Positions 24,015-62,639 of a stretch of 64,000 bases of DNA are shown one piece after another; positions within the stretch are counted from its first letter, which is position 1, and each line of letters opens with the position of its first letter. The translations under genes were made by a program, and so were the position numbers. Location of the stretch: the NCBI GenBank assembly GCA_022843125.1, contig JALHOG010000007.1:24971-88970 (forward strand), read 5' to 3'. The stretch is from Ilumatobacteraceae bacterium. Its GTDB lineage: Bacteria; Actinomycetota; Acidimicrobiia; Acidimicrobiales; Ilumatobacteraceae. The notes beneath the pieces are model-generated. The model saw nothing but the letters and a program-made list of their open reading frames with translations, ran no database searches and was not told the DNA's origin.

Positions 24015-24461
24015 ATGTACATCGTGCTGCGGCGCATCTTCCTCCTCGGCGTGCTCGGCGGCGCAGGGTTCGCCGGCTGGAGCGCTTGGCAGCGACGCAA
24101 CGAGGCAGTCGGCGTGGTCGGCACACCCGTCTGGCCGTCGTTCGAGCCAGCTGCGTCGAACCCCGCAGCGACGCCCGCTGCCGAGCCCGCGAGATTCGCC
24201 GCGATCCCCGACGACGCAACCGCCAATGACCCTGCGACCGACACCCACGACGGGTCGGCCGATGCCTCGCACGCCCATCCGGCTCGATGGGTCACCCCGG
24301 TCGACGGTGACTGCCCTCCCGGTTACCCGATCAAGGCGAACGACAACTCGGGCATCTTCCATGTGCCCGGCGGCCGCTTCTACGTGCGAACCGTGCCCGA
24401 GCGCTGCTACGCCGACGCAGCCGATGCCGAGGCCGACGGCTACCGTCGCGCCAAGGCCTGA
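24015..24461 (+). CDS. membrane-anchored sunset-domain-like protein
   Basis: 148 residues: one N-terminal membrane anchor (about 5-24), an Ala/Pro-rich linker, and a C-terminal module (about 100-148) with the [30 protein letters not shown] and [11 protein letters not shown] pattern. This matches the small Cys-containing domain called sunset in actinobacterial annotation, often at the end of nuclease-like or anchored proteins; its function is unknown. TAGGGT (24002-24007) ends 7 nt before the ATG, so the transcript is predicted to be leaderless. Confidence 0.7.
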
Positions 24462-56564: not shown

Positions 56565-58043
<1,479 letters not shown>

Positions 58044-58070: not shown

Positions 58071-59324
58071 TCAGAGCTGTTCGCCGTACTTGGCGAGATG
58101 GGCGGCCTTGGCCTGGCCGATCCAGTCCTCGCGTTCGATTCGACCGCGGAAGTCGAGCTGGTCGCCGATGCGTTCGGCGTCCTCCGCCGTCCACTGCGCG
58201 ACCTGCTTGAAGGTGGTGATGCCGACTTCGGCGAGTTTGCGGCCGATGACCGGGCCGATGCCCTCGATCTCGCCCTCGAGATCGTCGGGTTCGATCACCC
58301 CGACCGCGGTCGCGGCCAGCGCTGACGCAGGCCGGATGTCGAGGAAGCCGTCATGTGCGTCATCGTTGAGTGGGTTCGACAGCGGCCCGAAGTCGACGAT
58401 CCGGACCTGCTTGCCGGCGCCCTTGCCCGATCCGAGCGCCTCGGCGCCGCCGACGATCTCCATGATCTCGGTGGTGATCGAGTCCTGGCGTGCCCGGTTC
58501 ATGACGATGCTCAGGTTCTTGATCAGCTCGTCGGCGTTGTCGGTCGCGGACTTCATGGCCCGCTGACGGAACGCGTGCTCGGACGCTGCGGCGTTGAGGA
58601 GCGCTGCATACACGCGGGCCTCGACGTACCGAGGGAGGAGTGTCTCGAGGATGATCGTCGGATCCGGCTCGAATTCGTAGTCGCCACCGGTGCCGTCGTC
58701 GGATCCGGCCTTGCCGTCGCCACCCTGCACCACCTCACGGCTGAGGGGGACGAGCGGTCGCAGCACGACCTCCTGGCTGCCCGGGGTGATGAACCGGGTG
58801 TAGACGAGTTCGACTCGGTCGACTTCGCCGCTCGCGTACAGATCGACGACGTGCTGGCCGATCGCCTTGGCATCGGCGTAGCTCGGGCTGTCGCTGAAGC
58901 CGGCGAAACCCTGACCGAGCCGATAGCCGCGAAAGCGGAAGTACGACTCGGCCTTGCGACCGACCGGGATGATCTCGTAGCCCTTGCCGGCGAGCACGTC
59001 GGCCTTGACCTCACCCTCGGCGGCGCGCTGGATACCCGCGTTGTAGCCGCCGCAGAGGCCGCGGTCGGCGGTGATGACCACGTAGCACGTCGTCTTCACC
59101 TCGCTGCGTCCGGCCAGCAGCGGCGAACTGCTGTTCGCGCCGGCAGCGGCGAGGTCCTTGACGACCTCGGTGATCTGCTCGGAGTACGGCACGGCGGCCT
59201 GCACACGCTGTTGCGCCTTGACGATGCGCGACGCAGCGATCAGCTCCATGGCGCGCGTGATCTTCTTCGTCGCCTGCATCGATCGGATGCGACCCCGGAG
59301 GATCCGTTCCTGGCCACCAGCCAT
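58071..59324 (-). CDS. atpG: ATP synthase gamma subunit with C-terminal helix-hairpin-helix extension
   Basis: 417 residues, about 120 more than usual. Residues 1-297 are a normal gamma subunit, from RILRGRIRSMQATKKITRAM to the C-terminal rotor helix ending MNRARQDSITTEIMEIVGGAEAL, where the family normally stops. A linker (about 298-347) then leads to a domain (about 348-414) with IEGIGPVIGRKLAEVGITTF and the FRGRIEREDWIGQA signature. That is the helix-hairpin-helix/H3TH-like domain of COG3743, elsewhere found alone or at the end of proteins such as NuoE. The extension would emerge at the top of the F1 head. A smaller Gly/Asp-rich insert is at about 200-214. The frame is intact to the stop. 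Confidence 0.93.
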   Translation of the reverse strand: MAGGQERILRGRIRSMQATKKITRAMELIAASRIVKAQQRVQAAVPYSEQITEVVKDLAAAGANSSSPLLAGRSEVKTTCYVVITADRGLCGGYNAGIQRAAEGEVKADVLAGKGYEIIPVGRKAESYFRFRGYRLGQGFAGFSDSPSYADAKAIGQHVVDLYASGEVDRVELVYTRFITPGSQEVVLRPLVPLSREVVQGGDGKAGSDDGTGGDYEFEPDPTIILETLLPRYVEARVYAALLNAAASEHAFRQRAMKSATDNADELIKNLSIVMNRARQDSITTEIMEIVGGAEALGSGKGAGKQVRIVDFGPLSNPLNDDAHDGFLDIRPASALAATAVGVIEPDDLEGEIEGIGPVIGRKLAEVGITTFKQVAQWTAEDAERIGDQLDFRGRIEREDWIGQAKAAHLAKYGEQL

Positions 59325-59329
59325 CTACA

Positions 59330-60922
59330 TCACTCCGTCGCGAGGGTCTTGGTGCTGTGGGCCTCGCCGACCTCGCCCGCGTCGGTCGCGGTCGGGTCGA
59401 GCGCACGAGCCGCTGCGCTCGCAGCGAGGAACGAGTCCTTGAAGGATTGCACGGCGTCACCGAGACCCTCGGGGACGCCCTTGGTGCGGACCTCGTCGAG
59501 CATCGAACCGTGGCGCGTGCGCATGAAGTCGAGCATCTCGGCCTCGAAGCGCCGCACGTCGGAGACCGGGACGTCATCGAGGTACCCCTTCGTACCGGCG
59601 AAGATCGACACGACCTGCTCCTCGACGGGCATCGGGCTGTTGAGCGGCTGCTTGAGCAACTCGACCAGGCGGTACCCACGCTCGAGCTGCGCCTTCGACA
59701 CGGCGTCGAGCTCGGAACCGAACGTGGCGAACGCCTCGAGCTCACGGAACTGGGCGAGGTCGAGCTTGAGCGTTCCGGCCACGGACTTCATGGCCTTGGT
59801 CTGCGCAGCGCTGCCCACGCGAGACACGGAGATGCCGACGTCGACGGCCGGGCGCACGCCCGACTTGAAGAGGCTGTCCTGGAGGAACACCTGACCGTCG
59901 GTGATCGAGATCACGTTGGTCGGAATGTACGCCGAGACGTCGCCGGCCTTCGTTTCGATGATCGGCAGGGCGGTCATCGAGCCGGCACCGTTCTCGTCGG
60001 AGAGCTTGGCAGCGCGCTCGAGCAGCCGACTGTGCAAGTAGAACACGTCACCGGGGTACGCCTCGCGGCCCGGCGGGCGGCGCAGGAGGAGCGACATCTG
60101 ACGGTAGGCCTCGGCCTGCTTCGACAGGTCGTCGTACACGATCAGCGCGTGCTGGCTGTTCTCCATCCAGTGCTGGCCCATCGCGCAACCGGCGTACGGG
60201 GCGAGGTACTTGAACGGTGCCGAGTCGGCGGCGGGAGCGGCCACGACGACCGTGTACTCCATGGCGCCGGCCTGACGCAGCGTCTCGACGGTCTGAGCGA
60301 TCGTCGAACCCTTCTGACCGATCGCCACGTAGATGCACTTCACGCCCTGACCCTTCTGGTTCAGGATCGTGTCGATGGCGACGGTGGTCTTGCCGGTCTT
60401 GCGGTCACCGATGATGAGCTCGCGCTGGCCGCGGCCGATCGGCGTCATCGCGTCGATCGACTTGATGCCGGTCTGCAGCGGCTCGTGCACCGGCTTGCGG
60501 CCGAGGATGCCCGGCGCCTGGATCTCCATGCGGCGGAGCTGGGTGCCGACGAGCGGCCCCTTCCCGTCGATCGGCTCGCCGAGCGCGTTGACCACGCGAC
60601 CGAGCACGCCGTCTCCAGCGGGGACCGAGAGGATGCGGCCGGTCGCCTTGACCGGCTGGCCCTCTTCGATCGAGTCGGCGTCGCCCAGGATGACGGCGCC
60701 GATCGACTCCTCGTCGAGGTTGAGCGCGAGGCCGACGGTGCCGCCGGAGAACTCGAGCAGCTCGTTGACCGCGCAGTCGGGCAGGCCGGTCACGCGGGCG
60801 ATGCCGTCGCCGACCTCGGCGACCCGGCCGACGGTGCGGGCCTCGAGCGAGGGCTCGAAGCCCTCGAGGTTCTTCTTGAGCGCCGACGCGATGTCGGCGG
60901 CGGAGATGGTGAGTTCAGCCAT
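59330..60922 (-). CDS. atpA: ATP synthase alpha subunit
   Basis: 530 residues. Walker [16 protein letters not shown] is intact, with the usual N-terminal crown domain and a slightly long, acidic C-terminal tail. It forms the alpha3beta3 head with AtpD. The stop is 5 bp before the atpG start. Confidence 0.97.
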
Positions 60923-60940: not shown

Positions 60941-61468
60941 TCAGAGACGCGACTTGAGTTGTTCGACGCGGGTACGGACGCTGCCGTCGATGACGGTGTC
61001 GCCGACGGTGGCGACGATGCCGCCGATGACCGACGGATCGACGATCGTCTTCAGGTTGACCTGCTGGCCCGTGGCGTTGGCCAGGGCGGCAGCGAGGCGG
61101 GCCTGCTGGTCGGCGGTGAGCGGGACGGCGCTGCGAACCTCGGCGACCGCCAGGTTCTTCGCGCTCGACGCCCGGGCGACCAACTGGTCGATGATCGCCG
61201 GCAGGTCGCGACCGCGGCCGGAGCCGACCACCATCGAGACGAGCTGGGTGGTGGTGGACGTGGCCTTGCCGCCGAGCAGATCCTCGACGATCGCCTGCCG
61301 CTTGCCGGCCGGCACCATCTCATCGGTCAGCGCGCTGCGCAGCGCGTCGCTCGACTCGTAGGAGCGAGCGAAGCGGAACAGCTCGTCCTCGACCTCGTCG
61401 AGTGTGCCTTCGGCGCGAGCGACCTCGAACAGCGCTCGGGCGTAGCCCTCGATGCGTGCATCACTCAT
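60941..61468 (-). CDS. atpH: ATP synthase delta subunit
   Basis: 175-residue stator subunit linking the b subunits to the top of F1 (IEGYARALFEVARAEG start, C-terminal VRTRVEQLKSRL). Its ATG overlaps the atpF stop by four bases. In mycobacteria delta is fused to a b subunit; here it is separate. Confidence 0.95.
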   Translation of the reverse strand: MSDARIEGYARALFEVARAEGTLDEVEDELFRFARSYESSDALRSALTDEMVPAGKRQAIVEDLLGGKATSTTTQLVSMVVGSGRGRDLPAIIDQLVARASSAKNLAVAEVRSAVPLTADQQARLAAALANATGQQVNLKTIVDPSVIGGIVATVGDTVIDGSVRTRVEQLKSRL

Positions 61469-62004
61469 GCGTTGGCACCAACCTTCTGGATGAAGCTCTC
61501 GATCAGATCCTGCTGGCCGGCGTCGTCGAGCGCGCCGTCGGCGAGGAGGCGATCGGTGGCCGCGTTCGCGAGACGGGAGATCTCGGCTCGCAACTCGTCG
61601 CCGGCTCGGGCTGACGACGATGCCATCTCGGCGTCGGCGCGAGCGTCGAGCTCGACCAACTCGGCCTCGAGGCGGGCGCGCCCCTCGGAGAGCAGGTTGG
61701 CCGCCTGTTCATCGGCCTCGGCGAGCAAGCGGACCCGCTCGGCCCCGATGTCGCCGGCGGCACGGCGGATGTCGACGGCCTCGGTTTCGGCCTGCGCCTT
61801 GGCGGCCGCTGCGCCGTCGAGTTGCTGGCGGATGCGCTCGGTGCGGGCGGCCATGGCCTTCTTCGCCGGCGGCCCTCCGAACTTGTAGAGCGCGAAGAAG
61901 ATCACGAGCGACGCCGGAACGCCCCAGATGATCTCCTTGAGTTCGGGCCACAGCCAGTGGATGCTGCGAGCCGGATCGGCCCCCAGCAGCGATGCGAGCC
62001 TCAT
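61465..62004 (-). CDS. atpF: ATP synthase b subunit
   Basis: 179 residues: one membrane helix (about 25-43, IIWGVPASLVIFFALYKFG) and a long Ala/Glu/Arg-rich coiled coil to the end. It is one half of the peripheral stalk. The ATG overlaps the stop of the preceding b-type gene by four bases. Confidence 0.92.
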   Translation of the reverse strand: MRLASLLGADPARSIHWLWPELKEIIWGVPASLVIFFALYKFGGPPAKKAMAARTERIRQQLDGAAAAKAQAETEAVDIRRAAGDIGAERVRLLAEADEQAANLLSEGRARLEAELVELDARADAEMASSSARAGDELRAEISRLANAATDRLLADGALDDAGQQDLIESFIQKVGANA

Positions 62005-62639
62005 GACCGCACCCCTTCCATGTCGACGAGGGCGGCCTCGACCGCCGAGCGGACCCGGCCGGCGTCGGGCGTCGTGCCAGTCGCGAGCTCGAGCGTTCGT
62101 GCCGTCACATCGCTGGCAGCGGCGGCAACGTCTCCCTGCACCGCAGCGCGGGCAGCTCGGGCCTGCTCCATTGCGGCGTGCCGCTTGGTGGCGATGGCCT
62201 CGTTGGCGGCGGCCAGCCGTTCGGCACGCTCGGCTTCGAGCGTCATCCGGGCTGCGTCGATCCGCTGGTTCGCCTCGGCCTGGACGGCTGCGAGCGCCGT
62301 CTCGTAGTCGGCGACCTCGGCGCGAGCCGACGAGCGGGCCGCGTCGGCCTGCTCATGGCTGGCCCTGATGTGCTCGGCGCGAGCGTCCATTCCAGCCTTG
62401 AGGCGGGGGAACAGGAACAAGCGCATGATGATGAGCAGGACGATGAACGCGCCTCCGCCCCACAGGAACTCCTTGAGTTCCGGGGCGACCGGGCTGGGGC
62501 CCTCGAGACAGACCTCGACGCCTGCTTCATTGGTTTCGACGAACTCGCAGTCGGCGGGGTCGATCGCTTCGCCTTCTTCGGCGGCGACGAGATCGACTTC
62601 CACCCGACTACCGGTTGTCCTGACGACGGCTGTCAGCAC
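62001..62639 (-). CDS. second b-type (b') subunit of ATP synthase with acidic N-terminal extension
   Basis: 212-residue b-like protein. Residues 1-58 form an acidic, two-Cys segment (CEFVETNEAGVEVCLEG) predicted to lie outside the membrane, followed by one membrane helix (about 59-78, LWGGGAFIVLLIIMRLFLF) and a coiled coil. The pair with atpF suggests a heterodimeric stalk as in cyanobacteria. GTG start, with AAGGAG 5 nt upstream. The extension is not usual for b or b'. Confidence 0.88.
   Translation of the reverse strand: MLTAVVRTTGSRVEVDLVAAEEGEAIDPADCEFVETNEAGVEVCLEGPSPVAPELKEFLWGGGAFIVLLIIMRLFLFPRLKAGMDARAEHIRASHEQADAARSSARAEVADYETALAAVQAEANQRIDAARMTLEAERAERLAAANEAIATKRHAAMEQARAARAAVQGDVAAAASDVTARTLELATGTTPDAGRVRSAVEAALVDMEGVRS

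Follow-up and report, generated by a model that had tools for sequence, protein, structure and literature searches.

The window analysed here, a stretch of 64,000 nucleotides from an Ilumatobacteraceae bacterium, carries an atp operon in which the gamma gene, atpG, is flanked by atpA and atpD and has delta and two genes of b type further upstream (delta and atpD were assigned by reading). The following features were assigned:

56565–58007, minus strand: atpD (beta), downstream of atpG; read by eye, the MTMTE ATG within the listed ORF being taken as the start
58071–59324, minus strand: F1 gamma gene (atpG), 417 aa, ATG start, TGA stop
58071–58073, minus strand: TGA stop codon of atpG
58074–58280, minus strand: HHH (COG3743/H3TH-type) domain, residues 349–417 (NCBIfam tail regions, sub-threshold HHH_5 match, alignment A2, AF2)
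58281–58433, minus strand: linker, residues 298–348, predicted to be disordered (AF2)
58434–59324, minus strand: complete F1 gamma core, residues 1–297 (Pfam PF00231, NCBIfam PRK05621, AF2 helices)
59330–60922, minus strand: atpA (alpha), directly upstream of atpG (Pfam alpha/beta domains)
60941–61468, minus strand: atpH (delta), 175 aa, the part of the stator that covers the top of F1 (reading and alignment)

The atpG gene is a single intact frame with zero internal stops in its ORF translation, and one PF00231 match was obtained in the window's own genome. The Pfam ATP-synt profile (PF00231) spans gamma residues 8–297 (E 1.9e-95) up to its last position, a full-length match (profile 4–285 of 285, 320 bits), and both TIGR01146 (314 bits) and NCBIfam PRK05621 scored above their cut-offs. 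Since the PF00231 match reaches the profile end, the gamma core is complete at residue 297. Another 120 residues (298–417; 58071–58433 including the stop codon) lie past it. An earlier note, made from the letters alone, had read a gamma subunit complete to residue 297 and then extended in frame by 120 residues; the ORF and PF00231 confirmed this, and the motifs it quoted are present in the tail. GC3 was 0.88 in the gamma core and in the HHH domain, and 0.82 in the linker. In the same operon, alpha (59330–60922, minus strand) has KTLATE at its C-terminus, an end shared by the alphas that were read in L002–L038 with the exception of L037 (shorter, with a different end); L032 gave no alpha. One b-type subunit (62001–62639, minus strand) has by eye about 60 residues ahead of its membrane helix and two cysteines.

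The tail had been described as a helix-hairpin-helix (HHH) domain also found as a tail of core-complex proteins such as NuoE, and NCBIfam supported both points. Searched alone, the tail matched NuoE PRK12373 (2.4e-18, model positions 321–386 of 400), L21 PRK12278 (2.2e-16, positions 139–212 of 216), phasin PhaH (8.5e-16) and S2 PRK12311 (4.1e-13); the matched regions are the C-terminal parts of these four models and constitute one and the same domain, which we take to be the one named COG3743. Pfam HHH_5 (PF14520) reached 7.2e-5, with 23.6 bits for the tail alone and 20.6 bits for the whole protein, below its gathering score of 27 bits. In alignment A2, made up of 34 HHH sequences (the window gamma tail and 33 non-gamma domains), the window domain was 39–58% identical to the others and bears the hairpin GxGP and the signature GRIxREDWxxQA. 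Nine positions are invariant (D50, G58, G60, L67, F95, R98, R101, W104 and A108 in tail numbering), the last five of them in or just before that signature. The profile was built from alignment A4; alignment A3, a mixture of gammas and HHH pieces, seems to have misplaced the pieces (14–25% identity to the window, against 39–58% in A2) and was left unused. To alphaproteobacterial L21 tails (L046–L049), the window tail was 58–63% identical over about 60 residues. The HHH domain of the Fe-S oxidoreductase in the window's own genome was considered as the source of the gamma tail and rejected, as the 16 nearest domains listed did not include it. Two kinds of PDB chain contain the tail domain, protein-O of an RC-LH1 complex (8yy9_O) and one called 'complex I 41 kd' (9wqv_a); DNA polymerase IV is a relative, and so, at a weaker level, is RadA.

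The C-terminal end of the gamma shaft has been studied intensively and usually carries little or nothing. In the AF2 model (59 gammas), helices at residues 2–60 and 222–298 belong to the gamma core, residues 299–348 have no secondary structure (pLDDT below 50 at 312–317 and 319–342), and the helices of the HHH domain occupy residues 349–413, with pLDDT of 67–86 in ten-residue blocks. Linkers of the eight HHH-bearing gammas described below measured 34–72 residues. An extended chain covers about 0.36 nm per residue, so even the 34-residue linker can reach out of F1. Among the 68 gammas without a domain, the whole tail had a median of 27 residues (range 1–65). The best gamma stretches listed from the PDB stop at or before window residue 305, a listing that does not include the second stretch of two chloroplast rows. 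In open-licence PMC papers, no description was found of a gamma with HHH or with the second domain introduced below, sunset, or of their replacing one another, in agreement with the earlier note, to which no described gamma with this tail was known.

The distribution of the tail was followed in the window's own genome and 60 relatives. An HHH match was obtained in 11 of these 61 genomes and was located in gamma in seven, all from the window's family: G000, G002, G006, G007 and G009, which share one genus code, and G021 and G027, from two further genus codes. Within the family, 33 of the 37 genomes searched had any gamma match (some only at contig edges), so that the HHH tail was present in 7 of 33 and most gammas read were without it. 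The Ilumatobacter sp. gamma (L002) is the same as that of G006, and L004 added an eighth HHH gamma, giving eight distinct sequences from at least three genera, which confirms the fusion of gamma with an extra domain. In a class-wide draw of 395 genomes for each domain, some HHH match was found in 111 and some sunset match in 81; among the matches listed, HHH was in gamma in G000, G009, G021 and G027. The 26 further HHH loci returned by the class search contained zero gamma hosts (hosts read for the matches with loci). Outside the class, the search for an HHH gamma was negative: in 20 genomes of Pseudomonadota and Bacteroidota that hold the domain, zero HHH matches were in or adjoining gamma. 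Three-frame reading by eye downstream of the stop of gammas without HHH (12 loci) revealed no HHH remnants, the start of atpD being found instead.

On the tree of gamma cores (78 of 80; two partial cores were left out), the HHH label changes at least 6 times, and three states (HHH, sunset or none) require at least 8 changes. Two pairs of sisters, both with support of 100/98, differ in their tails: L003 (HHH) with L006 (none), and L004 (HHH) with L014 (none). L014 ends in HHAEHGESL and the corresponding L004 end is HHAKYGETL, a similarity that suggests an in-frame deletion of the HHH domain in L014. Two types of HHH tail were distinguished, type I in the window, L002, L003, L004 and L086, and type II in L085, L091 and L092. 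For L085 and L092, identity is 90% in HHH but 84% in the core; for L085 and L003, it is 90% in the core but 49% in HHH. In the domain tree, which has few columns and many unresolved forks, type II forms one side of a branch with SH-aLRT 100. The gamma cores rejected type II as a clade (p-AU 2.8e-7), and also L085 plus L092 alone (p-AU 1.1e-4), both p-values being optimistic as the groups were named after the tails had been seen. Therefore, exchange or replacement of the tail seems to have taken place independently of the gamma core. Nei-Gojobori dN/dS of the HHH domain was 0.14–0.25 in the six closest pairs (within window/L002/L003 and within type II), with 0.11–0.18 in their cores, and 0.55–0.70 in three distant or between-type pairs; core values were 0.11–0.27 over all nine pairs. 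The HHH tail of gamma is under purifying selection. A frameshift or sequencing error creating a read-through, which the earlier note had named as a possible refutation, is ruled out as the origin of the tail by the eight distinct tailed sequences and their low dN/dS.

These data bear on a reading in which the caps are mobile passengers, spread by recombination between the 3' ends of genes, tolerated on free cytosolic C-termini and of little benefit to the ATP synthase. It would fit the patchy presence of the tail, the sister pairs with and without it, the apparent deletion in L014, the exchange independent of the core, and the short tails of variable length that gammas of the class carry anyway. 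However, it is opposed by the low dN/dS of HHH in close pairs and by the recurrence of two unrelated domains on the same small set of core proteins, and we regard it as possible but rather unlikely.

The second of these domains was found on the gamma L039 of genome G005, which has the window's genus code and ends not in HHH but in the NCBIfam domain 'sunset' (NF051437, 7.9e-21). Gammas L127 (G052, family code f17) and L192 (G423, f29) also bear sunset, and they and the L039 tail scored above 27 bits with NF051437. At least three gammas, each from a different family, thus bear sunset where others bear HHH; this is a minimum count, since a phylum-wide search of 396 genomes with the sunset-bearing gamma L127 listed rows down to an E-value at which weak tail pieces would not yet appear. 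On the window gamma itself, the 20 families listed at E up to 1 did not include NF051437. The earlier note had not seen the sunset alternative. Linkers of the sunset gammas measured 48–85 residues, counted to IKGN, and that of L039 resembles the linkers of tailless L005 and L087 and of HHH-bearing L085. At the contig edge of L039/L124 (first 30 codons), a non-gamma protein is joined to gamma at residue 63; the residues of L039 ahead of that position look ArgR-like by eye, and this edge may be chimeric. The sunset end of L039 is far from it and is followed by atpD.

Between sunset and HHH there was zero sequence match. The AF2 model of sunset matched the Ada N-domain weakly (Z 3.9); when it was aligned with 20 PDB chains, all four matches with Z of 2 or more were Ada N-domains. 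Foldseek gave zero rows under E 1, and its best row was again Ada (E 1.1, weak). Regarding charge, HHH domains had a mean net value of −3.5 and were positive in 10 of 89, and among 54 sunset segments those on ribosomal and gamma hosts were mostly acidic and those on small membrane proteins mostly basic.

NCBIfam scans showed that HHH and sunset substitute for each other on three ribosomal proteins as they do on gamma: uL22 (HHH in L157 and L160; sunset in L229, in the window's own genome), bL20 (HHH in L170 and L183; sunset known here only as the NCBIfam model NF051450) and uS2 (HHH in L062; sunset in L231 and L195). NuoE with HHH was found in L071 and L079. By reading, HHH is also the C-terminal domain of coiled-coil proteins of the class (several with a hydrophobic stretch at the N-terminus), of small membrane proteins outside it and, in L151, L152, L155, L156, L158 and L173, of the same Fe-S protein as in L154 (below). 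The uL4 of C. acnes in 8crx (chain 8crx_e) matches sunset, the domain being held in its long extension. Several other proteins with these domains were observed. In the window's own genome, locus L229 (G000:C43; 8329–10014 and 5968–6945, minus strand) encodes ribosomal uL4 and uL22 with sunset tails, and locus L154 (G000:C57) a TfrB/LdhH-related Fe-S oxidoreductase that ends in HHH. The window itself encodes, at 24015–24461 on the plus strand, a small protein of 148 aa; its N-terminal part includes a stretch that looks hydrophobic by eye, and its C-terminal part is a sunset domain (NF051437, 1.3e-15). L064 and L149 contain proteins in which HHH occurs two or more times in tandem.

The earlier note had reasoned that the tail must sit on top of the rotating shaft or limit rotation. 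A GFP fusion at the C-terminus of yeast gamma is functionally incorporated, according to the title of reference 28 in PMC3155378, and GFP fused directly to yeast gamma, near the top of F1, is described as detrimental (PMC3155378). In E. coli, cross-linking of the gamma C-terminus to the bearing (gamma 276–285) leaves ATPase and rotation in place through a swivel, at a rate up to fourfold lower, and a covalent lock at the penultimate gamma residue does not stop rotation (PMC3536650). In our own material, delta has 175 aa in tailed L002, L003 and L004 and in tailless L005–L017, and alpha has 529–531 aa in L002–L006, with HHH present (L002, L003, L004) or absent (L005, L006). A compensating change of length in delta or alpha was thus rejected for the three tailed loci whose flanks were long enough to compare, those of the other four being too short. 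With the disordered linker of the AF2 model and the loss and exchange of tails between close relatives, these data leave the supposed constraint on rotation unsupported.

They also separate the three roles guessed for the tail, a brake, a tether or an assembly factor, of which a tether or docking function is the best. A brake, with HHH folded back onto the top of F1 so as to restrict rotation or ATP hydrolysis, would be allowed by the position of the domain at the rotor C-terminus, binding of the domain to F1 would be compatible with what was computed here, and the harm done by direct GFP fusion (PMC3155378) would agree with it. It is nevertheless very improbable, because the linker is predicted to be disordered, GFP is tolerated, rotation persists by a swivel even with the penultimate residue locked (PMC3155378, PMC3536650), tails are lost or exchanged between close relatives, and delta and alpha are unchanged in length; moreover, the same domain is carried by ribosomal proteins and NuoE, and an unrelated domain takes its place. 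A factor for assembly or stability, in which the tail would aid the folding of gamma or recruit a chaperone during F1 assembly and may do likewise for ribosomal proteins and NuoE, agrees with hosts that are subunits of large assemblies and with the guess of an assembly role for protein-O made from a comparison of its membrane part (PMC12079452). Since most gammas of the family were read without a tail, delta and alpha are unaltered in length and the long linker holds the domain apart from gamma, this role is doubtful.

The explanation that we favour, at roughly even credence, is that the C-terminal HHH of gamma is a mobile docking arm on a swivel linker, binding a partner common to several large machines. 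The linker, of about 50 residues, would emerge next to delta at the top of the alpha3beta3 bearing and would serve as a swivel, since twist does not build up in a single disordered chain; HHH would then neither brake the rotor nor have to spin. The domain would bind a cytosolic partner shared by the machines with HHH or sunset tails, namely ribosomal L20, L21, L22, S2 and L4, NuoE and the Fe-S oxidoreductase, and the ATP synthase would thereby be tethered or grouped. On this reading, HHH and sunset would form a pair of adaptors with related purposes, and the partner could be a protein or a nucleic acid such as nucleoid DNA. Disordered linkers, tolerated adducts, the swivel and flexible tails elsewhere favour the docking arm over a brake. 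In its favour are also the conservation of HHH in eight gammas under selection, tails that move independently of the core, the unchanged delta and alpha in three loci, and the substitution of HHH by sunset on gamma (L039, L127, L192), uL22, bL20 and uS2. Flexible, exposed tails have been described for carriers of both domains: the residues of protein-O past its membrane part are invisible in the map of RC-LH1 (PMC12079452), and the uL4 extension of C. acnes is without density (PMC10085706).

Several points weigh against the docking arm. The patchy presence of HHH, with at least 6 label changes over 78 gammas, could be that of a dispensable passenger; the detrimental effect of direct GFP on yeast gamma indicates that a domain at the top of F1 is costly in some geometries (PMC3155378); and the overlap in hosts between the two tail domains may reflect no more than a tolerance of abundant proteins for tails. 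A rough hypergeometric estimate of this overlap was set aside as evidence, being built on assumed numbers of hosts. In addition, one common nucleic-acid role for both tails is not well supported, since HHH is acidic and the second hairpin glycine is lost in gamma tails L085 and L092, despite the DNA-binding relatives of both domains. This concerns a sub-case of the docking arm, overlapping it in probability, in which the tails would bind DNA or RNA non-specifically and keep the machines near the nucleoid. It draws on the relatedness of HHH to DNA polymerase IV and, at a weaker level, to RadA, on the Ada N-domains matched by the sunset model, and on the DNA binding suggested for an H3TH domain on a PhaC2 (PMC8686332). 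The acidic HHH domains argue, at the level of sequence, against DNA binding, as do the mostly acidic sunset segments of ribosomal and gamma hosts and the missing hairpin glycine, and we consider this sub-case improbable.

A further reading would be a cell-wide capping code, in which HHH and sunset are interchangeable on the free C-termini of the ribosome, the ATP synthase and complex I, and both dock to one scaffold or to each other. In the window's own genome, sunset is on uL4 and uL22, and HHH on the ATP synthase gamma and the Fe-S oxidoreductase. We hold such a code to be unlikely; if true, translation and energy conversion would be physically grouped.

The HHH domain and its habit of tailing core proteins are already known. 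The tails of NuoE (NF009040), L21 (NF008915/6), S2 (NF008966) and PhaH (NF045508) are the same domain, placed C-terminally after a low-complexity linker as in the window gamma, whereas the host in the window is the rotor of the ATP synthase. Among the close counterparts is also a subunit of a bioenergetic complex, protein-O of the Dinoroseobacter shibae RC-LH1 (8yy9_O), which has a flexible C-terminal domain of the HHH kind (E 4.1e-16 to the gamma tail profile); protein-O, however, is a small membrane subunit and the window gamma a rotating shaft. Its authors call the function unknown or obscure, and they note that the HHH domain is also carried by NuoE and by proteins whose annotation is ATP synthase subunit E (PMC12079452). 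The sunset variants of L4, L17, L20 and S2 (NF051448–NF051451; L4 in 8crx) resemble HHH tails in placing a small domain on a C-terminal linker of core proteins, but the window gamma carries HHH and not sunset. Replacement of HHH by sunset on gamma and three ribosomal proteins joins these curated oddities and the reaction-centre subunit into one question, that of what the caps bind. Finally, the engineered GFP on the C-terminus of yeast gamma or of V-ATPase subunit D (PMC3155378 and its reference 28) shows that a large adduct at the rotor top is tolerated in part; those fusions are artificial, and direct fusion to gamma is detrimental. The natural domain on gamma is folded, conserved and exchangeable, and offers a native system to test what may hang on the rotor.
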